This document shows positions 22,823 through 34,744 of a DNA stretch of 36,163 bases, piece after piece. The translations under genes were made by a program, and so were the position numbers. The DNA comes from an uncultured Alphaproteobacteria bacterium (GTDB lineage Bacteria > Pseudomonadota > Alphaproteobacteria > HIMB59 > GCA-002718135), in assembly GCA_902535885.1 (NCBI GenBank), contig CACAVG010000004.1:1-36163 (forward strand), written 5' to 3'. The notes beneath the pieces were generated by a model. It saw only the letters and a list, made by a program, of their open reading frames with translations. It was not told the DNA's origin and did no database searches. Every line of letters starts with the position of its first letter. Position 1 is the first letter of the stretch.

Positions 22823-23641
22823 ATGTTAGTCGATCTTACAATCCTAAATATTATTTCTTTTTTATTAATTTTTTTTATTGGTCTTCCCCATGGCTCATTT
22901 GATGGTGCAGTTGCTTCCTTAGTAGGCTTTAATAACAGAACTCAATTTTTACAATTTATACTTTATTACCTAATTTTGTTTTTTCTAGTAATTTTATTTT
23001 GGTTATATTTTCCTATTATTGCTTTAACTATTTTTATTATAATGACTATTGCTCATTTTGGATTATGTGATTGGACACATTTTAACATAAATAAATATAA
23101 ATATTCAGTAAGTTTTACTTATGGAATGACTGTTATTTTTGGAATTATATTCTTTAATGAAAATCAATCTTTTTTAATATTTGAATATCTTACAAATAAT
23201 AATATTTATTTAATTCAAAAATATTTTTTTATACCATATTTTTTAACATCCTTATCTATAATATATTTTATTTATCTTTCTTTCTTTGAAAAGAAATTAC
23301 GAAAAGGAATTGTTGAAATATTTTTTCTTTTACTGTTTTTTTATTTCTTTGATCCACTTCTAAGTTTTGCAATATATTTTTGTTTTTTTCATACTTACAA
23401 ACATCTAAAACATTTGATAAATAATGTTTATTTAAATTTAACCAATAAATACTTTGTTATTTACTCAACATTAATTTTTACAGCAATTTCATGGATCGGT
23501 GGTCTAGGAATTGTTTATTACTTAGTTCAAAATTTATCACTATATGAATCGATATTAAAAGTAATTTTTATCGGACTTGCTGCTTTAACTCTTCCCCATA
23601 TGTTACTTGTAGATATTGTATATAGAAGGAGATTTAAATAA
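22823..23641 (+). CDS. blh: Brp/Blh family beta-carotene 15,15'-dioxygenase
   Basis: Multi-TM; GLPHGSFDGAVA, AHFGLCDWTHF, CFFHTYKHLKHL, LPHMLLVD histidine motifs. Confidence 0.87.
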   Translation: MLVDLTILNIISFLLIFFIGLPHGSFDGAVASLVGFNNRTQFLQFILYYLILFFLVILFWLYFPIIALTIFIIMTIAHFGLCDWTHFNINKYKYSVSFTYGMTVIFGIIFFNENQSFLIFEYLTNNNIYLIQKYFFIPYFLTSLSIIYFIYLSFFEKKLRKGIVEIFFLLLFFYFFDPLLSFAIYFCFFHTYKHLKHLINNVYLNLTNKYFVIYSTLIFTAISWIGGLGIVYYLVQNLSLYESILKVIFIGLAALTLPHMLLVDIVYRRRFK

Positions 23642-23657
23642 ATCATTTTCTCAAATA

Positions 23658-23685
23658 TTGACTTATAAATTCAACATGGTAATTG
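23658..23685 (+). promoter_or_regulatory. Putative sigma70 promoter of tRNA-Gly
   Basis: TTGACT (23658-23663), 16-bp spacer, TAATTG (23680-23685), ~10 nt before tRNA position 1. Confidence 0.5.
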
Positions 23686-23695
23686 TGTAACTTAT

Positions 23696-23770
23696 GCGGG
23701 CGTAGCTCAGGGGTAGAGCGCAACCTTGCCAAGGTTGAAGTCGAGGGTTCGAATCCCTTCGCCCGCTCCA
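23696..23770 (+). tRNA. tRNA-Gly(GCC), CCA encoded; left attachment site of island 1
   Basis: GCGGGCG TA GCTC..GAGC G CAACC TTGCCAA GGTTG AAGTC GAGGG TTCGAAT CCCTC.. CGCCCGC T CCA: full cloverleaf, anticodon GCC. Confidence 0.96.
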
Positions 23771-23837
23771 GAAATCCAATAAACCTTCTCTTTTGTCTGT
23801 TAAGTTTTTTCTTAATTTAACTAATAATACAATTTCA

Positions 23838-23855
23838 TTGTGACTGAGTTGTGAC
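23838..23855 (+). repeat. Left-end arm-type repeat pair TTGTGAC-TGAG-TTGTGAC (island 1)
   Basis: Two exact 7-mers at 11-bp period; same arrangement and orientation at 30153-30170. Confidence 0.7.
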
Positions 23856-24129
23856 AGAAAAAAACATTAATAGGGTGCAGACATGTGCCATAGGGGGGGT
23901 GCTATACCTTTATGTTTAACTTTTATATTTTTATCAAATCTGGATGTTAACTAGTTTTACATATATTTAAAAAGCTATCAAAATACTTAATTCTTAAATT
24001 TAATTTTCTTTAGAATTAAAAGAAAAATCTAAACTATTGAGAGGGTAAAAATTTTTATACATATAATAAACTAGGCAATTGCATTTAAGATGAATTGTTA
24101 GAAAACATAAAAAATGTTAAGATGTTTTT

Positions 24130-24363
24130 ATGGAAATAGTAGGTGCTGTAATAACTCTAATAGTTATTGGTATTATTATTGGCATTATAGTAATTCCAAC
24201 ATACTTTATTGAAAACTTAAAAAAAAATGAGAATACTAATAAATTGCTGAAAAAAAATTTTCTTTGGGCAGACGTTCAATCATTTATATATCTTATACTT
24301 TTAATTTTAGGAATTTTATTAGTTGGATTTGTGTTTACTAATCTGGGAGTTGTACTTTTTTAA
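24130..24363 (+). CDS. Small membrane protein, unknown function
   Basis: 77 aa, two hydrophobic segments. Confidence 0.45.
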   Translation: MEIVGAVITLIVIGIIIGIIVIPTYFIENLKKNENTNKLLKKNFLWADVQSFIYLILLILGILLVGFVFTNLGVVLF

Positions 24364-24401
24364 ATTTATTTTTCTTTCTGGTTTCGGGTAATGAAGTAGA
24401 A

Positions 24402-25877
24402 TTAAGAAGATACCCAAGAATACCAACCACTTATATAACTCTCATACAAACCATCATCATTACTTAACACTAAGTTAGCAACCTGTTCTGACCCTACTAT
24501 TTGTTCTTCTGGTTGAATTTCGAGTGGAACTTCTACTTCAAAGTTATCTCTTATTTTGGTTAAAGAACTTTTAACTTTAATCATCGTCTTCATCAGTTTT
24601 TTGTATTCATGTTTCATTTGCGCTCTTAAAGATAATTCAAAGCCAACAGGAACAATGAAGCTATCATGAATGGGTAGTATAACAATATTCTGTTTTTGAA
24701 AGAAGGTCATCAAGCGTTGAGCTATAATTGAATCAAGAAACATTAATTCTAAACCAACACCAGTACTAAAATGATGAACAATAGGTTTATGATAGGTGTT
24801 AACCAGCTTGTTAAGTTGATAATGAGTAAGTTTAAGTTCTTTTAGTTCAGATTTTTTTAACCTGTACTTACCCCCTTCATCATTCAACAATGCATTGGTA
24901 TATAGTTTAACTAGTTCCCTTGCTCTAGTTAAGTATTTGGTATTACCTGTTAGCCCCAAGTCATATAAATCCCTGTCAACATCCATTGGAATGTTTTCTT
25001 TTGAGTATAGTAATCGTAGAGACATCGTTGAGAAGTCAACCTCTACAGTTTTCTTGCCATTAATTGTTATATGATGGCGGTATTTAGAGGGTATAGATTG
25101 CCACCAACCCCCATAAAATCTTCCACCAAGATTATTTTTACCCCTTGCAAATACTCTTCTTAAATGGGTTAAAGAATAGTTAATCGTGTTGTCATGCTCC
25201 TCATTAAAAAAACTTCTTTGTTTTTTTTTCTTATTTAATTCATGAATAATTTTTTTGAATTGGCTATTAGAAACATCCAAAGCAATACAATTTTTACTAA
25301 TAAACTGATTAAAAGATAATAATCGTTTTTGTTGTTGTTTGTAAAAGTCAGTTTTAGGAAGAGGCAGAGTAATTTTTTTGTATTTCTTTTTTTTACCTGT
25401 TGTTTTTACTCTGTCTCTTTTAAATACAAATGTTTCGTCTTTATCTGGAGGGTAATAACGCCACTGAAACCCTATCTTATCTAATAATTTCTCAAGTGTT
25501 CTACTATGTTTAATTCTTGTTACCTGTCTTCGTACTTCACTCCCCTTTATAAGAGTAACTAAACCCCCATTTTCAAGAGCATTAATAACTTTTTTAACAT
25601 TTTTATATCCATATTTTTTACCAGAATAATATTTGGCAGTTAAATTTATTGAGACTAAGTTTTTAGGGAAACTAAAATGTGAGAGGTAAAGAGCATTGAC
25701 TAAATGAATAGTAATATTTCTTTCATTCAACCTTGTATCCGTTGTTACTCCTTTCGTTGTTTTTCTTGAAGACTCAATTTGGGAAAAAACCTTCTCGATA
25801 ATTTTATCTAGTAAGTTGTCTTTTGAAATAGGATACCAATCAAAAAGTTTGTCGTTCATATTTCTTAAAGATAACAC
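24402..25877 (-). CDS. Putative replication protein with possible winged-helix N-terminus and family A / single-subunit polymerase-like palm
   Basis: GGRFYGGWWQSIPSKYRHHITINGKKTVEVDFSTMSLRLLY (motif A-like, D281), TRARELVKLYTNALLN (R-x3-K O-helix-like), IVILPIHDSFIVP (motif C HDS, D405). Confidence 0.6.
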   Translation of the reverse strand: MLSLRNMNDKLFDWYPISKDNLLDKIIEKVFSQIESSRKTTKGVTTDTRLNERNITIHLVNALYLSHFSFPKNLVSINLTAKYYSGKKYGYKNVKKVINALENGGLVTLIKGSEVRRQVTRIKHSRTLEKLLDKIGFQWRYYPPDKDETFVFKRDRVKTTGKKKKYKKITLPLPKTDFYKQQQKRLLSFNQFISKNCIALDVSNSQFKKIIHELNKKKKQRSFFNEEHDNTINYSLTHLRRVFARGKNNLGGRFYGGWWQSIPSKYRHHITINGKKTVEVDFSTMSLRLLYSKENIPMDVDRDLYDLGLTGNTKYLTRARELVKLYTNALLNDEGGKYRLKKSELKELKLTHYQLNKLVNTYHKPIVHHFSTGVGLELMFLDSIIAQRLMTFFQKQNIVILPIHDSFIVPVGFELSLRAQMKHEYKKLMKTMIKVKSSLTKIRDNFEVEVPLEIQPEEQIVGSEQVANLVLSNDDGLYESYISGWYSWVSS

Positions 25878-25921
25878 AATTATTCCTCTTCATTGCCCAA
25901 TTCAAAATCTATAATTAAAAT

Positions 25922-26497
25922 GTGGCACTAATTAAACGTTATGTATTATTTTTTTTCTCCCTGTTAATCATTAATATCCTTCTAGTTGGTGCCACCATAG
26001 CAAATGCTTCATCAATAGGTATTAATGATGATTTACCTAGTTGGAGGATTGAGCCCATAGATAATGATGGTGTGTTAATATCAAGAAATGGTCAAGTCCA
26101 AGTAGGTGATAATTTATATTTCTATATTTCTAAATCAAATTGTAACCACTTAGAGAATTTGTTTAGTTTTTATACCGCTAATAATCATCCTCGCATCAAC
26201 ATGCTATTGGAAGAAAAGGTTTATATTAAAATTAATAATACATCTGGTTGGGCAAAGGTACGTTTTATCTATCCTTTTTTAATGGGTCATTCAGTATGGT
26301 TATCATTAGGTATGTTTAATATGGATGATTTTGCTGAAACACTTAAGCCCCATGATAAATTTGAAGTTGTTATTATTGATAAAGAAAACTTTGTTGCAAA
26401 AGAATATTTTGATATTGAAACCAACTATTGGTATCTCGAAGGCTTAGAAAACGCTCTTCGCAGAGGAAAAAATCTATGTCTAGCCTCATCCTCCTAG
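25922..26497 (+). CDS. Secreted/membrane-anchored protein, unknown function (GTG start)
   Basis: N-terminal signal/TM segment then a soluble domain; divergent from the polymerase-like gene. Confidence 0.6.
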   Translation: MALIKRYVLFFFSLLIINILLVGATIANASSIGINDDLPSWRIEPIDNDGVLISRNGQVQVGDNLYFYISKSNCNHLENLFSFYTANNHPRINMLLEEKVYIKINNTSGWAKVRFIYPFLMGHSVWLSLGMFNMDDFAETLKPHDKFEVVIIDKENFVAKEYFDIETNYWYLEGLENALRRGKNLCLASSS

Positions 26498-26529
26498 AAA
26501 TAATAATAATTATTTTAATTACTAATTAA

Positions 26530-27219
26530 ATGAGAATATTTTCATTCTTTATATCTTCTATAATTCTATTAATTTTTTCTTATTTTGTTTTTGTTCCAAC
26601 AATGGGTTTTTATAAAAATGATATTAAGCCTTTAATGAATGGTTATAAAAAAATAGATAAAAGTAATTTAAAACATAACCATGAAAATATTAATGAAGAT
26701 ATATTTATGTATATTCATTACCTTGTTACGTTTGATGAAGAGGCAAGACAATTTTATTCAATAGAAGAAGCAAATCTAAATGAAGCTTATCTTAGTTGTG
26801 TTGAAGATAATAAAATCTTTAATATTTCCTGTATGAAAACCCTACAAAATAAAGGTCAGAAATTTTTAATTGATGATAAATGTGCCTGGACTTTTTTTGG
26901 GCACTCAAGCGTGGCTAGAGATAAAGATTATTATCTTGTCAGTATGGAAGAAAAAATGTGTGGAACATTTTTAGCTCGTTTTAATACTTATTATGTTTTT
27001 GAATATAAGGATGATTATTTGAGAGTAACTAATGCTTTTTTAACTGGAAAGGATATCTTTAATCCAATTAAATACTATAAAATAAATGATGATAGCTTCT
27101 CTTTTGTTACTGAGGCATGTGCTCATGGAGCAGATACCTGTTGGGGAAGTAAGGCAGATTGGTTGGAGTTAAAATTTGAATATAATCTTAAACAAAATCA
27201 TGTATTACAAAAATTGTAG
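26530..27219 (+). CDS. Membrane-anchored or secreted protein, unknown function
   Basis: N-terminal TM; long ORF with several Cys residues; convergent with the 658-aa gene. Confidence 0.6.
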   Translation: MRIFSFFISSIILLIFSYFVFVPTMGFYKNDIKPLMNGYKKIDKSNLKHNHENINEDIFMYIHYLVTFDEEARQFYSIEEANLNEAYLSCVEDNKIFNISCMKTLQNKGQKFLIDDKCAWTFFGHSSVARDKDYYLVSMEEKMCGTFLARFNTYYVFEYKDDYLRVTNAFLTGKDIFNPIKYYKINDDSFSFVTEACAHGADTCWGSKADWLELKFEYNLKQNHVLQKL

Positions 27220-27223
27220 GATA

Positions 27224-29200
27224 TTAATTACTCCAATAATTATTATTTTTATTAATTCGTTTTGAAATAATATTTATTTTTTCTTCAGCAGAAAAAAATT
27301 CAAGATAATCTACGAACTGTTTCTTTTTTTTGATTAAGCTACTTGCATTGATAAGTAGTTTATTTTTTTTCTTTTTAATTGCTTCTTGTATTACAAAAGA
27401 CTCTTTTGAAGGGTCAATTTTTTCCAGTATGAAGAATGCTGAAGTAAAATCTTCTTTTTTAAGTAGGTGCTTAAATATCTTTTGTAAAAAGTCATATTTG
27501 TATTCTTCAGTATTTATAGAAGTCTTGTTTTTATCTTCAGGAATATATTTTTCAACATACCAATTAGCAATCTTAATTGACTCTGAAAACATATCGTTCA
27601 CAAGTAAATGGTCAAGAAAATCTTCAATCTCGGAAATTTGCCAACTAAATACAGAACTAGTTGTTTCTTTATTTACAAAATCATCAACAAAAGTTGTAAC
27701 TTGTTTTTTGTATTCATTATCTAAATATGACTTTGATGAATAAATTAATAAATCAACAGCTAGTCTAGTGTCATAAACAACAACATCATCTTTATGTTTG
27801 AAAAAAGACTTTTCAAAAATAGGTTCAGAACTTTTTACTTCATTCCACTTATCTATAACTTGAATTGTAAAATTTTTATCATGATTTATTACTGATGCCT
27901 CTGCCAATCTAGATAATAAATAATTTTTAACACCATCTCTCATTGTTGTATTAGCTATCAAATCATTAGCTTCAGAAAATAGTTCAACATTTATAAGAAA
28001 TAAAATAATATTTTTTGCTTCTACCTCGTTCATTACTTTATTATTCAAATTAGAATTCACTACCCAGGTTTTGGCTAGAATTTTTGCAAGTTCATTTTCT
28101 TTATATCTTAAGGCATAATTTGCTAAACTAAGATAAAGATTATCAATTTTTTCACTTTCAGTTTCTCCTTTTGCAAACTTATTTGCTTGATTAAATATAA
28201 CTTTATTTATCTCCTCTAATGCCCCCTTTTTATGCTCATCTGATAATTCTTTAAAATCTTTAATTAAGTTATCTACTATGATTCCAAGTTCAATTGTATC
28301 TACATCAACATTTGTTAGCTGAGAAACTTCATTAATTATTTTGGGATACCACTTGTAAATATCTTGCAAAGATTGTTTATCTATTTTTTCCAATAAAAAA
28401 TATTTACGGAAATAACTTTTCGCTAAATCTAGTTCATTTTCCTTAATAAAAAAAACTAAGATATCAGTAATGTTAAATTCAAATTCACTCTTATTCATTC
28501 TAGATGTAAATTCATTACCTTTTTCAAGATATTGTTTTAAACAATCAATATTTTTAAGACTAAAACATACGCTAATTAACCATTCGTGATTTGGTCTAAT
28601 TTCATCTACGCTCAATTTAAAAAAACGATTAGTCAAATCATCAAAAATAATTTCAGATGAAAGAGAATTTTTTTCAATTAATATTTCTAATATTTGAGCA
28701 TTGTATGAAAGTAAATCAGAAGTAGAATAAAGTGTATCATTTGTAAACAAATCTTCATGTTCTTTGAGCAAGAACAACATCTTGACTTCATTTTTATCTT
28801 TTTTAGAAAAATAGAAAAGATTTACAATTGCACTTTTTTTTGAGTAATTTTCAAGTTTTAATGCATAATCATAAGCACTATCAAATCCATATGTGTAATA
28901 CAAATATGCTATAAAAGAATCTTGAATATACGAATTGTTAATAAATTCATTATTTAAATCTTGTTCATTATAGTTATCTTTCATCACTTCATAAATATAC
29001 AATGCTTTCGCTTTAAATCCGTGTTCACTTAATCCTTTAATAACATCTGATAGATAAAACCATTCTATTTTATCTAGATTACTAACCTTCGGAATGGTTT
29101 CTATTAATTTATCTGCGTAAAAAATAGTGTCTTCATGTAGTTTCTCTTTTGCAAAAGCCAAATTAGAAAATAAAAAAAATATTAACACAATTTTTTTCAT
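27224..29200 (-). CDS. Large secreted helical-repeat (TPR/Sel1-like appearance) protein, unknown function
   Basis: Signal peptide MKKIVLIFFLFSNLAFA; repeated helical segments; ATGA overlap with the integrase stop. Confidence 0.65.
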   Translation of the reverse strand: MKKIVLIFFLFSNLAFAKEKLHEDTIFYADKLIETIPKVSNLDKIEWFYLSDVIKGLSEHGFKAKALYIYEVMKDNYNEQDLNNEFINNSYIQDSFIAYLYYTYGFDSAYDYALKLENYSKKSAIVNLFYFSKKDKNEVKMLFLLKEHEDLFTNDTLYSTSDLLSYNAQILEILIEKNSLSSEIIFDDLTNRFFKLSVDEIRPNHEWLISVCFSLKNIDCLKQYLEKGNEFTSRMNKSEFEFNITDILVFFIKENELDLAKSYFRKYFLLEKIDKQSLQDIYKWYPKIINEVSQLTNVDVDTIELGIIVDNLIKDFKELSDEHKKGALEEINKVIFNQANKFAKGETESEKIDNLYLSLANYALRYKENELAKILAKTWVVNSNLNNKVMNEVEAKNIILFLINVELFSEANDLIANTTMRDGVKNYLLSRLAEASVINHDKNFTIQVIDKWNEVKSSEPIFEKSFFKHKDDVVVYDTRLAVDLLIYSSKSYLDNEYKKQVTTFVDDFVNKETTSSVFSWQISEIEDFLDHLLVNDMFSESIKIANWYVEKYIPEDKNKTSINTEEYKYDFLQKIFKHLLKKEDFTSAFFILEKIDPSKESFVIQEAIKKKKNKLLINASSLIKKKKQFVDYLEFFSAEEKINIISKRINKNNNYWSN

Positions 29201-30141
29201 AGCTTTTTTAATATATCCTCTGCTTTTAAATGAGTATATCTAAAAAGCATTCTTACATCTTTATGTCCAGAAATTAAGGCTACTTCAGGAATACTTAACC
29301 CTTTTTCAAAGAACCGTGAGATAGCTTCATGGCGTAAATCATGGAAGTGTAAATCTTTAATGCTAGCTTTATTTTTTAATCTTTCCCAAGCTAATCTAAC
29401 TGCATTTGCAGACATTGAAAAAGGAAGTTTTGATTTATGCAAAACATATTTAGCTCTTTCAGTCAGAGGAATTAATCTTTGATGACCGTTCTTTGTTATA
29501 GGTACTAATAGTGTGTTAGCTTTGATGTGTTCTTTTTTTATATTTAAAATTTCACCACGTCTCATGCCAGTTTCAATTGCTATCTCAATTATATTTCTAA
29601 GAGTGTTCTGAGAATAGTTTCCTTTAACTAAATAATTATATTCATATTCAGTTAATCTTCTTTCCCTTTTTTGAAAAACTTTTGGTTTAGTTAAATTGTT
29701 ACAAGGATTATTAATTTCATAACCCCATTCTCTTTTTAAAATATTAAAGAAATGTCTAATTAAATTTAGTTCTCTTAGAAATGTTGATGCTTTAACCTTT
29801 TCTAATCTTAAATCTCTATATTCAGATAAGTGTTTAGTTGTAATCTGATTTACAGGTAAGTTAGAAAAAGAAGTTTTTAAGAAATTATTAAAACAATACT
29901 TCTCAAATTCATAACCTCTTTTTTTTATTGAAATATTATTAATATATTTTTCAATTAGTTTTCTTGTTACTGGAAATTTTTGTGGTCTATATTTTATAGC
30001 ACATCTTTGAAGTTCTATCTCTTTCTCTCTTCCCCATTGCAATGCATCTTTTTTATTAATAAATGTTTTACTTGTAGCTCCACAATTTTTTATTCTTATT
30101 TGGATTTGCCATTTATTATTTCTTTTTCGTAGTGTTGCCAT
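29197..30141 (-). CDS. Tyrosine recombinase / phage-type integrase
   Basis: IETGMRRGEIL (catalytic R), HDLRHEAISRFFEKG (HxxR), ISGHKDVRMLFRYTH (H...Y); arm-binding-like N-terminus MATLRKRNNKWQIQIRIK. Confidence 0.95.
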   Translation of the reverse strand: MATLRKRNNKWQIQIRIKNCGATSKTFINKKDALQWGREKEIELQRCAIKYRPQKFPVTRKLIEKYINNISIKKRGYEFEKYCFNNFLKTSFSNLPVNQITTKHLSEYRDLRLEKVKASTFLRELNLIRHFFNILKREWGYEINNPCNNLTKPKVFQKRERRLTEYEYNYLVKGNYSQNTLRNIIEIAIETGMRRGEILNIKKEHIKANTLLVPITKNGHQRLIPLTERAKYVLHKSKLPFSMSANAVRLAWERLKNKASIKDLHFHDLRHEAISRFFEKGLSIPEVALISGHKDVRMLFRYTHLKAEDILKKL

Positions 30142-30152
30142 TTGATATCTCC

Positions 30153-30170
30153 TTGTGACACAGTTGTGAC
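30153..30170 (+). repeat. Right-end arm-type repeat pair TTGTGAC-ACAG-TTGTGAC (island 1)
   Basis: Same heptamer and 11-bp period as at 23838-23855; lies between the integrase start and the second att copy. Confidence 0.7.
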
Positions 30171-30202
30171 AAAGAGAATGTTATTGAGAAAAATGCCCGT
30201 AA

Positions 30203-30277
30203 AGGGGCGTAGCTCAGGGGTAGAGCGCAACCTTGCCAAGGTTGAAGTCGAGGGTTCGAATCCCTTCGCCCGCTCCA
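30203..30277 (+). pseudogene. Near-complete tRNA-Gly(GCC) pseudo-copy: island 1 right att / island 2 left att
   Basis: Identical to 23696-23770 except the first two acceptor bases (AG instead of GC), which break pairs 1-72 and 2-71; no TTGACT promoter upstream. Confidence 0.85.
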
Positions 30278-30299
30278 AATATTGAGCGGGTTAGATTTA

Positions 30300-30321
30300 A
30301 ACGCTCCACTTACGATCCAAT
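30300..30321 (+). repeat. Left-end arm-type repeat of island 2: AACGCTCCACTTACGATCCAAT
   Basis: 20/22 identical to 33844-33865; heptamers ACGCTCC/ACGATCC at 11-bp period. Confidence 0.65.
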
Positions 30322-30353
30322 AGAGCCAAGCTTTTCCTAGAAAGAGAGAAATT

Positions 30354-30602
30354 ATGGCTACTATTCAAAAGCGTAAATATTTAAATAAAACTAGTTACCA
30401 AGTTCGTATAAGGCGATTAGGCATAAAGACAATAACCAAATCTTTCCTCACGAGAACCGAAGCCAAAAGGTGGTCTAGGTCCATGGAAACAAAATTAGAT
30501 AAAGGCGATTACTCGGATTATTCAACAGCTTCCAAAGTAACATTGGGCGATCTTTTTAAACGTTATATTTTTCCAAAATATTCTGCACAATATCGCTGTT
30601 GA
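30354..30602 (+). pseudogene. 5' remnant of a phage-type integrase gene (catalytic domain missing)
   Basis: MATIQKRKYLNKTSYQVRIRRLGIKTITKSFLTRTEAKRWSRSMETKLDKGDYSDYSTASKVTLGDLFKRY is a typical arm-binding/core-binding start, then it runs into the 3' end of the opposite-strand gene. Confidence 0.75.
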
Positions 30603-30769
30603 ACTGCTACTTGTTTGTCAGACATTCCAGGTTTCATAGTCCTTTCTCCAACACACTCATGAAAACTATCATAAGTGAAGAAGTTTTTATAAATTAAATA
30701 ACCAATAATTATCAAAATTACAGAAAATATAATAAGTCCTATCAGTCTAGTCTTTTCATCTTTATTCAT
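30563..30769 (-). CDS. Small single-TM protein, unknown function
   Basis: One TM then a conserved-looking Cys-containing tail (FHECVGERTMKPGMSDKQVAVQQRYC). Confidence 0.5.
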   Translation of the reverse strand: MNKDEKTRLIGLIIFSVILIIIGYLIYKNFFTYDSFHECVGERTMKPGMSDKQVAVQQRYCAEYFGKI

Positions 30770-30778
30770 TAAAATATC

Positions 30779-31147
30779 CTACAAACAAATATCTTTAATA
30801 GAGACAAAAAATAATACGCCCATTGGCTCACTCCATCTTTCAGGGTTATTTGTTAGGTATTTTTCTACAATAGCACGCAACTGTTTATTATTTTCTATTT
30901 TATCCATTAAGCATTTTTTAAGTTCACTAATATCTGAAAGAGCTTCATCAGAGGTACCAATATTTAAATATAACCTTGAAGAGAGTAAACCATCAGCTAC
31001 CCCAATTAAATAATTAGATTTTTCTATATTTGTTAATTTTAAATAATCATTACCTGATAAATAACCCTCATAAACTAATCTTGTTTGGGAATAAGAATAG
31101 TTTGTTAACATTAAAAAAATACTAGTTAATAATAAAAAACATCTCAT
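30779..31147 (-). CDS. Secreted small protein, possibly Rap1a/Tai-like
   Basis: Signal peptide; YLIGVADGLL...LKKCLMDK...IVEKYLTNNPERWSEPMGVLFFVSIKDIC pattern. Confidence 0.45.
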   Translation of the reverse strand: MRCFLLLTSIFLMLTNYSYSQTRLVYEGYLSGNDYLKLTNIEKSNYLIGVADGLLSSRLYLNIGTSDEALSDISELKKCLMDKIENNKQLRAIVEKYLTNNPERWSEPMGVLFFVSIKDICL

Positions 31148-31156
31148 ACTTTACTC

Positions 31157-31182
31157 TACCACCAACTAAGAAGATTGTTAAG
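31157..31182 (-). promoter_or_regulatory. 26-bp repeated leader element, copy 1
   Basis: + strand TACCACCAACTAAGAAGATTGTTAAG, ending 9 nt upstream of the ATG at 31147. Confidence 0.65.
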
Positions 31183-31216
31183 ATCTTCAGACGTCAAATA
31201 TTTAATATAATATAAG

Positions 31217-31723
31217 CTACAAAATATAACTGTAATCATTCTCTCCTTTAAAAAAGCACTGACCTAAGTCAGTTTTATTATCGTAATAATAAACAAATAA
31301 ACCACCATGTATCTTGCTAATAACTAAATTAACAAAGTCAGTTTCATTAATAGTATTTTTATTACTTTCTATTGAAGTTTTGATTTCCAACCATTCAGTT
31401 TTTAAACTTTCTGGTATTTCATAGTATTCAATAGTTTGTATAAATTTATCAAGATTAAAACGAATATTTAAATGAAGCATATTCCTAGATTCATTTTTGA
31501 CATCACCAATTAATATTTTTGTAACGTCCCATCCAAGATTTTCAAAATAGGAAAAAAAATGATCATCAAATTTCCTATTAAAATATATTTTATCAATTTT
31601 ATTATTATCAAAATTTACATCGAGGTAAATTCTCTCTTTAGGAGTATCTTTTAGTAGGCATTCTATTGTCATAGCGTTAACAGAAAAATTACATACTAGG
31701 ATAAATATGATTAAGTATTTCAT
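31217..31723 (-). CDS. Small secreted two-cysteine protein, unknown function
   Basis: Signal peptide MKYLIIFILVCNFSVNA; Cys just after it and near the C-terminus (ECLLKD...GQCFFKG). Confidence 0.55.
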   Translation of the reverse strand: MKYLIIFILVCNFSVNAMTIECLLKDTPKERIYLDVNFDNNKIDKIYFNRKFDDHFFSYFENLGWDVTKILIGDVKNESRNMLHLNIRFNLDKFIQTIEYYEIPESLKTEWLEIKTSIESNKNTINETDFVNLVISKIHGGLFVYYYDNKTDLGQCFFKGENDYSYIL

Positions 31724-31914
31724 TTATCCTCCTTGTTTTTTCTTCGAAGTTCACGAGTTACAACTAGTTTTGGTTTCTTGAAATCTTTTTTCTCTCTATC
31801 CCATTCAAAATATGGGCCAACGTGAATAGTCATAGACGGTTTAGAAAGATCTAGACCACTTTCTTTTTTTACAATTTTGATAAACTCTTCAGAACTAACT
31901 TTTTTAAGAGGCAT
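31720..31914 (-). CDS. Small cytoplasmic basic protein, unknown function
   Basis: 64 aa; 4-nt overlap with the downstream gene. Confidence 0.4.
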   Translation of the reverse strand: MPLKKVSSEEFIKIVKKESGLDLSKPSMTIHVGPYFEWDREKKDFKKPKLVVTRELRRKNKEDK

Positions 31915-32002
31915 TTTAACTCCTTTAGCGTTTTATTTATTGTCCCAGCAATTAGAGTATCTAAATTAGGACAATTAATTCATAACATTTTTTTATAGAA
32001 AT

Positions 32003-32548
32003 TTAAAACTTATTATTTTTAATTTCACAATTCCAATCTAGACTTAGGCCAGAGAATTCTTCATCAAAAAATTCATTGAATCTCTCAGAATAAACAGAGA
32101 TATTCCCATTAGATCTATTTATTGAAACATGAATATCAGACTCACCATAATTTGTTCTGTGAGGCCATGCTCGAAATAATAAACTCCCATTTGTTTCCTT
32201 TATTAAAGGAATAGGCTCATCATTAAATTGAACTGTTAAACTTTTATATTGTCCAAAGATATTTTTATTTATCTCAAAGTAAGCAGCTCTATCTTCTATT
32301 TTCAAATCAGAAGAAGATATTGTTTTTTTAAAATCTCTATAATCTTGCCAAAAAATCCTTTCAAAAGAATATTTTAATTCCTCAAATTCGTTTTTTTTAT
32401 TTTGATTAAATTTTTCTGAATCTAAAAAATCACTTACTTGAAACTTAAAGTAAGTCCACGATTGTTTATCAACTTCGCACAAAAGTCTTTCAACTGAAAA
32501 TGCGCTTGTACAAAAAAATAAAATTATAAGGGTTGTAAAAATTTTCAT
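32003..32548 (-). CDS. Small secreted two-cysteine protein, unknown function
   Basis: Signal peptide; LLCEVDK...SLDWNCEIKNNKF. Confidence 0.55.
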   Translation of the reverse strand: MKIFTTLIILFFCTSAFSVERLLCEVDKQSWTYFKFQVSDFLDSEKFNQNKKNEFEELKYSFERIFWQDYRDFKKTISSSDLKIEDRAAYFEINKNIFGQYKSLTVQFNDEPIPLIKETNGSLLFRAWPHRTNYGESDIHVSINRSNGNISVYSERFNEFFDEEFSGLSLDWNCEIKNNKF

Positions 32549-32937
32549 TTTAACTTCTCATTAATTTCATTTAATTTTTCTAAAATTTTTTCTTGTGCCT
32601 CAGCTTTTGTTTGATAATTATAGTTTATTAATCGATAGAGATTGCCTAAAATAGTAAGTCCTCCCAATATTACTATTATAACATCTCCACTCAATCCAAT
32701 TGCAAAAAGAAATATAAAAACAATATACAAACGTATTAAATCATCTTTGATAGATCCATTTTCTTTAAGAAAAAATTTAGTAATTAAAAACCCAATAAAA
32801 ATTAGAACTGGGACAAGAATTATTACTCTTAATAAAACAAAATAGTAAAGGGCATCAATCAATCTATAAGCGAACTCCAGTTTTTCACTAAGTTCCAAAC
32901 TGTAAATAAAGCTTAAAGCACTGTCTAGAAATTCCAT
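32545..32937 (-). CDS. Small membrane protein, unknown function (start reassigned from 32955 to 32937)
   Basis: Multiple TM segments. The called TTG start lies inside the repeated leader; the internal ATG (MEFLDSALSF) is 9 nt from the leader, like copy 1. Confidence 0.5.
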   Translation of the reverse strand: MEFLDSALSFIYSLELSEKLEFAYRLIDALYYFVLLRVIILVPVLIFIGFLITKFFLKENGSIKDDLIRLYIVFIFLFAIGLSGDVIIVILGGLTILGNLYRLINYNYQTKAEAQEKILEKLNEINEKLK

Positions 32938-32946
32938 TATTAATAC

Positions 32947-32972
32947 TACCACCAACCGTAGAGATTGTTAAG
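32947..32972 (-). promoter_or_regulatory. 26-bp repeated leader element, copy 2
   Basis: + strand TACCACCAACCGTAGAGATTGTTAAG, 9 nt upstream of the ATG at 32937. Confidence 0.65.
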
Positions 32973-33011
32973 TATTCTGGTCAAAAGTATTTAATTTGGT
33001 ATATTCAAAAT

Positions 33012-33272
33012 ATGGATTTCTTGCAATTCAAAGATCTAATTCAACAAACAGGTTATTTAATATTAACTTTGATAATAGCTGCTTCTGTAATTAGCTCACT
33101 TCAAACTATATCAATCCGAATAAATAAAAATGAAATTTCATCTATTGGATTTTTTCTCACCCTTTTTGGTTACACAGTTTTATACGTGATTTTCATTACA
33201 TTTCTAATAGCGTTATTAGCAACTCTTTATAATTTCCTTTTAGATTTTGTAGGACAAGGACCATTTTTTTAG
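33012..33272 (+). CDS. Small membrane protein, unknown function
   Basis: 86 aa with two TM segments; overlaps the next ORF by 1 nt. Confidence 0.45.
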   Translation: MDFLQFKDLIQQTGYLILTLIIAASVISSLQTISIRINKNEISSIGFFLTLFGYTVLYVIFITFLIALLATLYNFLLDFVGQGPFF

Positions 33273-33595
33273 TGAATAAAGTTTTTTTTATAATCTTATT
33301 ATTTTTTTCAACGAGTGTTTTTGCTGAAACATATATTTGCGGATTTGAAAGTGACGGAGAAACTAAAACACAAAAATTTGAAAGATTTGGATTTGATTAT
33401 TTTAAAAAAGAAAATGGATCATTAGAAAATATTATTTTTGAAAACGAGCTTTTTATTCATATTCATACTATTGTCGAACCAGGTACATGGGCAGTACTTA
33501 GGATAATTGACAAAAGAAATAATAAATATACTCAATCACTTGTTGGTAATGATCTACCACCAAATAAGATCACAGGAATTTGTGTTAAAAATTAA
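33272..33595 (+). CDS. Small secreted two-cysteine protein, unknown function (GTG start)
   Basis: Signal peptide NKVFFIILLFFSTSVFA; ETYICGFES...ITGICVKN. Confidence 0.5.
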   Translation: MNKVFFIILLFFSTSVFAETYICGFESDGETKTQKFERFGFDYFKKENGSLENIIFENELFIHIHTIVEPGTWAVLRIIDKRNNKYTQSLVGNDLPPNKITGICVKN

Positions 33596-33668
33596 TTGAA
33601 TAGAGTTCATACCAATAACTAGAAAAGACCACATACTTAAATAATACTTAAGGGCAGTCGAACCACAC

Positions 33669-33842
33669 TACCACAGTTAAAACTCCATTTTTACGTTCTT
33701 ACGTAAATCGCAAACGTAAATATTTAATTTATTTATTAGATTTACGAAAAGAACTGTGGTCTGTGGTGAACTGTCAAAAAACTCAAGTAATCATTGAAAA
33801 ATTAGACCCACAGTAATTTTTTTTAACTGTGGTAACTGTGGT
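33669..33842. repeat. Iteron-like noncoding repeat cluster (AACTGTGGT family, plus inverted repeats)
   Basis: Perfect 14-bp inverted repeat 33669-33682 / 33821-33834; tandem AACTGTGGT 33825-33842; ACTGTGGTCTGTGGT 33753-33767; TTTACGTT 33690-33697 / AACGTAAA 33713-33720. Confidence 0.7.
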
Positions 33843-33843
33843 G

Positions 33844-33865
33844 AACGCTCCTCTTACGCTCCAAT
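33844..33865 (+). repeat. Right-end arm-type repeat of island 2: AACGCTCCTCTTACGCTCCAAT
   Basis: Exact ACGCTCC heptamers at 11-bp period; 20/22 match to 30300-30321. Confidence 0.65.
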
Positions 33866-33930
33866 CAAAAAAAGAATTCAATTTTTATGATATAGTTTCT
33901 TTAGGAAAAGGCCGATCTCAATTGTACATG

Positions 33931-33981
33931 GCAACCTTGCCAAGGTTGAAGTCGAGGGTTCGAATCCCTTCGCCCGCTCCA
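33931..33981 (+). repeat. 51-bp 3' fragment of tRNA-Gly(GCC): right att of island 2
   Basis: Exact match to the 3' 51 nt of the intact tRNA (GCAACCTTGCCAAGG...CGCCCGCTCCA). Confidence 0.9.
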
Positions 33982-34070
33982 ACGTTTCTGCCGTTTTTTC
34001 CAATCAAGTTTTTAGATAGCACCTCAGAGTCGAGCGTGTGTCGATAATCACTTTCAGAAAGAGAGTGAAA

Positions 34071-34130
34071 ATGGCGTATATTAAAAACGTAAACATAAAT
34101 TTTCAACAACCAATGAGATTGTTTATTATT
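34071..34130 (+). pseudogene. Very short, frameshifted 5' remnant of a second integrase gene
   Basis: AGAAAGAGAGTGAAAATGGCGTATATTAAAAACGTAAACATAAA aligns with AGAAAGAGAGAAATTATGGCTACTATTCAAAAGCGTAAATATTTAAA at 30340; adding one A gives MAYIKKRKHK, like MATIQKRKY. Confidence 0.5.
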
Positions 34131-34707
34131 TTTTATTCAGCAGTTTAATTAATAATTTTGCATATTCTCTGGCATCATCTATGGCTTTATGCGTATGTTT
34201 TGTATTATCATGCAATTCTAGAGAGTAATCATCTCTACCTATGTCTCTATAATCTTTTTGTAGCACAGCAGCAGCATAGGATTTGATATCAAAGGCTGCT
34301 TGTCCATTCTTATCAAAAAAAGGCATAGAGAAAGGAATTTTTTCTAATCGTTCTGTAAGAAAAGTTTGAATATACCAATTGATCCACATAAAATCTAATG
34401 GAGCTGGATGAGCAGCCATAACTCGTGGGGTTGGTAACGTGAGAAGCCAATCACCAAATTTATTCATTCCTTCTTTGGGTGAGACTTGATTATGCTGAGT
34501 ATGTTTTAAAGCTTCTGGCGCTTCTGTTGTAAACCAATGCATAGTAGCGGGGTGAGGTTTGGCATTTTCTAGTGGCAAGAAATTAATTTCACATTCTCCA
34601 AAATTTTCTCCTTCTTTATTAACGGCTACAGCACCAAGGCTTATCATAGAATGTGTTCCTGGAATAGGTCCGTCCGCTTCTATGTCACACACAACATAAG
34701 TAGTCAT
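34126..34707 (-). CDS. DEDDh 3'-5' exonuclease (RNase T / DNA pol III epsilon-like); start reassigned from 34731 to 34707
   Basis: VVCDIEADG, HPAPLDFMW, HKAIDDAREYAKLL. The called TTG start lies inside the repeated leader. Confidence 0.8.
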   Translation of the reverse strand: MTTYVVCDIEADGPIPGTHSMISLGAVAVNKEGENFGECEINFLPLENAKPHPATMHWFTTEAPEALKHTQHNQVSPKEGMNKFGDWLLTLPTPRVMAAHPAPLDFMWINWYIQTFLTERLEKIPFSMPFFDKNGQAAFDIKSYAAAVLQKDYRDIGRDDYSLELHDNTKHTHKAIDDAREYAKLLIKLLNKK

Positions 34708-34718
34708 AGTTGAATTAT

Positions 34719-34744
34719 TACCACTAACCAAGGAGATTGTTAAG
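34719..34744 (-). promoter_or_regulatory. 26-bp repeated leader element, copy 3
   Basis: + strand TACCACTAACCAAGGAGATTGTTAAG, 11 nt upstream of the ATG at 34707. Confidence 0.65.

Follow-up and report, generated by a model that had tools for sequence, protein, structure and literature searches.

A probable integrative mobile element at tRNA-Gly carrying a TV-Pol-like family A polymerase in a SAR86-group genome

The window analysed here, a stretch of 36,163 nucleotides (contig C4 of a 1.0 Mb, 56% complete genome), carries a 6,507-bp segment, unit 1, bounded by two copies of tRNA-Gly(gcc). Unit 1 is probably an integrative mobile element, with a polymerase of the TV-Pol kind that would copy its excised form and a middle part that holds exchangeable cargo. 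TV-Pols are family A-like polymerases, one subset of which has an extra N-terminal domain; they adjoin lambda-type integrases, gamma-delta resolvases or transposases at integration hotspots in bacteria, including marine proteobacteria, and the proposal was that they serve replicative elements as primase-polymerases (Iyer, Abhiman and Aravind 2008, PMC2579912). Judged by its sequence and a structural model, unit 1 fits the elements that pair a TV-Pol with a lambda-type integrase, and its polymerase fits the subset with the extra N-terminal domain. Unit 1 is not a new class; it is a TV-Pol example whose boundaries are unusually clear and which offers both an empty site and evidence of a polymerase swap. 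An earlier note on this DNA had proposed an integrative element with its own polymerase, a reading now supported by fold, motifs, the link to integrases and tRNAs, and empty sites. The same note's view that the combination belonged to no standard element class has to be given up, as elements joining a TV-Pol with an integrase or resolvase were described in 2008 (PMC2579912). The genome group is labelled SAR86 here, its most likely affiliation, as the closest named relative of the polymerase (54%) belongs to a SAR86 assembly.

Boundaries, integrase and empty site

The host tRNA-Gly(gcc), which serves as the attachment (att) site, forms the tRNA-proximal junction (attL; 23696-23770, + strand; ARAGORN, Rfam), and the second copy, recognized by a tRNA call and a repeat match, forms the distal junction (attR; 30203-30277, +). 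The segment between two tRNA-Gly copies that had been noticed from the letters alone is borne out by a perfect 73-bp repeat common to both (23698-23770 = 30205-30277). Chance origin of the repeats was considered and ruled out by shuffling the sequence, which gave zero expected matches to their 26-mer core.

In the genomes examined from the same genus, the carotenoid gene blh precedes tRNA-Gly, and the sequence beyond the tRNA varies by genome. The flanks of unit 1 were joined in silico (23500-23770 to 30278-30480) and aligned to these genomes. One unbroken alignment, running through tRNA-Gly, was obtained with G042 (473 bp, 91.8% identity) and another with G030 (433 bp, 92.4%). In both genomes, the left end typical of unit 2, the next unit in the window, stands directly at tRNA-Gly without unit 1. 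By this alignment, the junction in G042 and G030 is a real empty site of unit 1, and the comparison supports unit 1 being an insertion, site-specific at tRNA-Gly. Two further genomes (G044 and G008) have one att core each and no integrase match.

The tyrosine integrase gene of unit 1 (29197-30141, −) is intact, as the earlier note had read it, with matches to PF00589 (E=1.8e-24) and to a PHROG integrase family (E=1e-51). Integrases 66-93% identical to it occur in other SAR86 genomes, together with the same tRNA-Gly-type att core, and ~112 bp lie between integrase start and att core both in the window and in close relatives. An 18-bp arm-like motif, TTGTGACNNAGTTGTGAC, is found inside both ends of unit 1. 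At the left end (23771-24039, +; ~88% DNA identity to the element of genome G069) it forms a putative integrase arm site, TTGTGACTGAGTTGTGAC, at 23838-23855, and at the right end another, TTGTGACACAGTTGTGAC, at 30153-30170 (+). Slightly altered, the motif adjoins the integrase at the corresponding position in seven relatives. It also lies upstream of the integrase of locus L013, the nearest relative element, though L013 sits beside a different tRNA.

A stripped-down family A polymerase

Conserved motifs and a predicted fold show the 491-amino-acid (aa) protein of unit 1 (24402-25877, −; start possibly at 25859, as in its L013 homologue) to be a reduced family A polymerase that lacks a proofreading domain and has an extra N-terminal domain and an altered sugar-selecting pocket; the protein had earlier been described as polymerase-like. 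It matches phrog_4756, a family of unknown function (E=2.9e-35), and no Pfam family. Pfam and NCBIfam give the polymerase family as a whole no meaningful match, and a PDB sequence search with either the single protein or a profile returned none. The AlphaFold model (pLDDT 85.5, pTM 0.84) has as its top Foldseek matches exclusively family A DNA polymerases (apicoplast Pol, Taq, Bst; probability 1.00, E ~2e-4). Whole-chain TM-scores to these enzymes are low (0.26-0.33), as expected if the polymerase core alone is common to both. Phage homologues are far stronger in Foldseek (best E 3.5e-20; E 5e-18 for a Barba phage protein), and one of them, in a Barba phage, is annotated as DNA polymerase. For the replication protein of Zamilon, the match is one of fold and not of sequence (E=4e-3). 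When the profile was aligned to host-type PolA, motif A fell where it should, though the signal was weak (P=0.023, against 0.43 for an unrelated control). The source genome has its own polA on a separate contig.

Motif conservation was scored on 62 polymerase sequences from the alignment of relatives, in which R241, G252, R253, W258, R267, D281, K324 and D405 are invariant and the motifs follow the pattern VExDYSxLH / RxxxK / LPVHDSF. The two metal-binding Asp of the palm, D281 and D405 (each 62/62), fall at palm-type strands of the model, and the invariant arginines of the beta-hairpin, R241 and R253, on model strands 239-243 and 251-256. Fingers residues D303 (59/62), R320 (61/62) and K324 (62/62) are likewise conserved. 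TV-Pols are described with a bi-helical coiled-coil thumb; the model has helices at 177-194 and 204-219, upstream of the hairpin, as candidates for it. Pfam matched no fused nuclease domain in any of the 62 members.

The Glu of PolA (Klenow E710) excludes ribonucleotides. At this sugar-gate position of motif A, the 62 sequences have mostly His, otherwise Q, S, A and other residues, and not Glu; the 491-aa protein has Ser. The O-helix position of Klenow Y766 is Asn in 61 of the 62 rather than Tyr. As both the Glu gate and the O-helix Tyr are replaced, the enzyme may have a relaxed choice of sugar, which would be compatible with priming.

Unit 1 thus resembles TV-Pol elements (PMC2579912) in its polymerase, which in those elements is a family A-like protein of 400-600 aa with an extra N-terminal domain, an invariant hairpin Arg, RxxxK and two catalytic Asp. 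It also resembles them in its setting, namely a neighbouring lambda-type integrase (or gamma-delta resolvase) and a hotspot with restriction systems. Unlike the elements of that study, unit 1 belongs to SAR86 and has mapped tRNA-Gly ends and an empty site, and it has no D5 helicase.

Integrase association and cargo across relatives

A scan of genome contigs yielded 172 polymerase relatives, 80 of which were kept, and loci were counted where at least 6 kb flanked the polymerase on either side (n=34). A tyrosine integrase occurs in 33 of these 34 loci, the rough background being two tyrosine integrase genes per megabase in the source genome. Many kinds of tRNA are involved, and at loci with a visible tRNA the integrase mostly sits no more than ~100 bp from it. 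Sixteen elements of ~7-12 kb are bounded by repeats of a tRNA 3' end; the polymerase is inside all sixteen and the integrase inside 15. These sixteen were chosen for having a repeat, and their individual ends are tentative, as some repeats are only 14-16 bp long. Polymerase distances track integrase distances (Mantel r=0.66, 0/999 permutations). The only families widely common to the loci are the polymerase and the integrase; the next occurs at 15 loci, and its three scanned members are serine resolvases. In L013, polymerase and integrase are paired beside a tRNA other than that of unit 1. The pairing of integrase and 491-aa gene near tRNA repeats, put forward in the earlier note, is therefore widespread in relatives; it is not obligatory, as the polymerase is missing from the majority of SAR86 elements that share the integrase.

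Two observations stand beside these counts. In L013, a homologue (1625-2206) of an exonuclease encoded elsewhere in the window (34126-34731) lies between integrase and polymerase, whereas no nuclease linkage was reported for TV-Pols (PMC2579912). Glaciecola sp. HTCC2999, a cultured marine strain, has two polymerase-plus-integrase loci (L017 and L019) ~22 kb apart, and is a possible experimental model.

Besides the polymerase and integrase, unit 1 encodes the cargo that had been listed in advance, three secreted or membrane-anchored proteins and a small membrane protein. The latter, of 77 aa, is an open reading frame (ORF) at 24130-24363 (+). A 191-aa secreted protein (25922-26497, +) is encoded divergently from the polymerase, 45 bp away. 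It is followed by a 229-aa membrane-anchored protein (26530-27219, +), an 88% identical copy of which lies in an element of genome G063 (locus L124), and by a 658-aa secreted orphan (27224-29200, −) in the slot held by restriction systems in sister elements. The last three have N-terminal signal or membrane segments, as read from their sequences. Pfam, PADLOC and phage searches gave no match to the 658-aa protein, and it has no relative in 162 SAR86-order genomes. Cargo matches below the Pfam cut-off (DUF2250, ETRAMP, 7TM and others) were weak and disregarded. Pfam, PHROG and PADLOC found no terminase, capsid, relaxase or conjugation genes in the element, in agreement with the first reading of the sequence. 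The secreted cargo may act on the envelope, for example against phages. The earlier note's suggestion that the element delivers envelope-directed cargo was set aside, signal peptides being all that speaks for it.

The cargo differs in other SAR86 elements that have this integrase: type I restriction in G018, type III in G069 and G070, and a DndB-like gene in G063. The comparison supports the middle of unit 1 as an exchangeable cargo bay, with secreted proteins here and restriction systems in sister elements. The element of G069 has the same left end, 191-aa gene (94% identical as a protein) and right end as unit 1 (88-92% DNA identity), and a polymerase only 27% identical; on this alignment it is a polymerase swap in a constant backbone. 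A smaller pattern concerns the 191-aa gene, whose upstream region and leader (MALIKR...LLVGAT; window 25861-25995) recur in other SAR86 elements. There the leader precedes different mature proteins, of 228 aa in L171 (5511-5719, oriented copy) and of 143 aa in L125, and by these comparisons it is a conserved leader with exchangeable secreted domains.

Downstream of unit 1, the window continues as an array of at least three tandem units at tRNA-Gly. A third copy of the 3' part of tRNA-Gly (~50 bases, the att core; 33931-33981, +), found by repeat search, defines a second unit at 30278-33981. The earlier note's extent was right as to the two tRNA-Gly copies, and it overlooked this third core, unit 2 and the start of unit 3. 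Unit 2 is a remnant island with secreted and membrane ORFs, the att core at its right end and an integrase truncated to 82 aa (30354-30602, +) of another type than that of unit 1; its left end is also found beside tRNA-Gly in G030 and G042. Unit 3 begins at 33982 and has its right end beyond the contig. At its start is the exonuclease mentioned above, an RNase_T-type 3'-5' enzyme (34126-34731, −; PF00929 E=1.1e-6) with a 98% copy in a tRNA-Gly unit of G030. Elsewhere in the source genome, the small contig C59 bears an extra 25-bp att core (G000:C59:444-468, L187), which may mark where unit 3 ends on the right. Tandemly repeated att copies, some accompanied by an integrase and others not, are frequent at tRNA-Gly across the genus.

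Proposed mechanism, alternatives and significance

In the mechanism proposed for unit 1, the integrase recombines the 3' end of the host tRNA-Gly with the att site of the element, which contains almost all of a tRNA-Gly gene. By comparative evidence, the host tRNA is left intact, with the second tRNA copy at the far end. The integrase would also excise unit 1 to a circle, and the polymerase, probably a primase-polymerase, would copy that circle or turn incoming single strands into duplex. Such copying would let the element persist long enough to re-integrate or to be carried out, with transfer possibly occurring via a helper phage or DNA uptake.

Several results weigh against this reading. Six other SAR86 elements carry orthologues of the integrase without the polymerase, from which it follows that the polymerase is not needed for integration or excision. 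The idea that the polymerase always accompanies a unit 1-type integrase was rejected inside SAR86, where most same-integrase elements lack it. In another SAR86 genus, the polymerase stands alone as a 1.6-kb insertion (L094:8772-10374; also L095, L099, L100 and L101). The insertion is flanked on one side by the stop codon of a 252-aa gene and on the other by the exact 3' end of tRNA-Cys; no integrase occurs in the 20 kb that were examined. Precisely matching empty sites are present in related genomes, and the lone gene is under purifying selection (ratio of nonsynonymous to synonymous substitution rates, dN/dS, ~0.1-0.2), which makes a use unrelated to element replication possible. No helicase, Xis/AlpA or origin was recognised in unit 1, and the family A profile match is weak from sequence alone. 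A candidate TV-Pol of Microcystis phage LMM01 (22746-24266), chosen by its size and adjacent transposases and not by the identifier of the 2008 paper, scored no better than other ORFs against the profile (E=1.1), and no published TV-Pol was connected to the 491-aa protein at the sequence level.

A function of the polymerase in phage conflict (defence or counter-defence), with the island as a mobile cassette moved by the integrase alone or in trans, is unlikely. It would account for the many same-integrase SAR86 elements without polymerase, several of which have type I or III restriction or a DndB-like protein, and for the conserved tRNA-Cys insertion, kept in several genomes. Homologues also occur in large phages of Vibrio, Aeromonas and Rheinheimera, the Rheinheimera (Barba) ones beside another replicative polymerase. 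These include divPolA2 of Caudoviricetes (PMC11348598), which with phrog_4756 is homologous to the 491-aa protein; divPolA2 is a second polymerase of tailed phages, whereas the 491-aa protein belongs to a small integrative element. Defence has been raised by the author of PMC10061031 for PolA-SSB primases. These enzymes, with CcPol-MP of SCC elements, resemble the unit 1 protein as family A polymerases in genomic islands, and CcPol-MP with its partner primes DNA de novo in vitro. They differ in coming from Bacillota, with a helicase and SSB partner and mostly large serine recombinases, none of which were found in unit 1. Against a defence role stand the absence of any PADLOC match and the near-constant company of an integrase across proteobacteria, with distances that track those of the integrase. 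It is a little less likely still that the protein is an RNA polymerase or a pure primase rather than a DNA polymerase. The motif C sequence HDSF, the missing Glu gate and a Foldseek match to POLRMT would suit such an enzyme, and the authors of PMC11348598 leave RNA polymerase open for divPolA2; the top structural matches are nonetheless DNA polymerases, and the gene lies in an integrase element rather than in a transcription unit.

Unit 1 could also be a phage satellite, packaged by a helper phage and replicated by its polymerase during helper infection, in the way of the primases of PICMI or P4-type satellites. This is possible though doubtful, and compatible with an integrative element copied by its own polymerase, for which it would supply the mode of transfer. 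PICMIs are likewise small marine islands with an integrase and a replication protein (PMC10803314), marine phages hold homologues of the polymerase, and the size and plan of unit 1 are similar; PICMIs, however, encode AlpA together with a DUF3987/DUF5906 primase and insert at fis, whereas unit 1 has neither by Pfam scan, integrates at tRNA-Gly and carries no capsid-size or packaging gene. That mobility has been lost and the locus is a dead island, the relic of an array at a tRNA hotspot, is very unlikely. The truncated integrase of unit 2 and the frequent tandem att copies in the genus would fit decay, but in unit 1 the integrase and the ORFs are intact, both arm sites are present and the 73-bp repeats are perfect, and close relatives lack the unit at the same site.

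A broader reading, that a self-priming family A enzyme makes unit 1 a self-synthesising integrative element widespread in proteobacteria, is possible though less likely than not. Unit 1 would then be a counterpart of pipolins, which have a polymerase and a tyrosine recombinase between tRNA direct repeats, with variable cargo, and whose self-priming polymerase was proposed to copy the element (PMC7385651). Pipolins use family B piPolB, whereas the unit 1 polymerase is of family A by fold and motifs. On the same reading, the polymerase gene could by itself form a minimal unit, mobile or domesticated, for which the 1.6-kb tRNA-Cys insertion is the example.

Direct experimental follow-up of the integrase-linked TV-Pol branch was not found in the literature searched. 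Exact ends, empty sites and sister elements that have the same integrase with and without a polymerase make the role of the polymerase of unit 1 directly testable, and the locus is well suited to studying what this enzyme family does. It also suggests how abundant, streamlined ocean bacteria may acquire restriction systems and secreted proteins.

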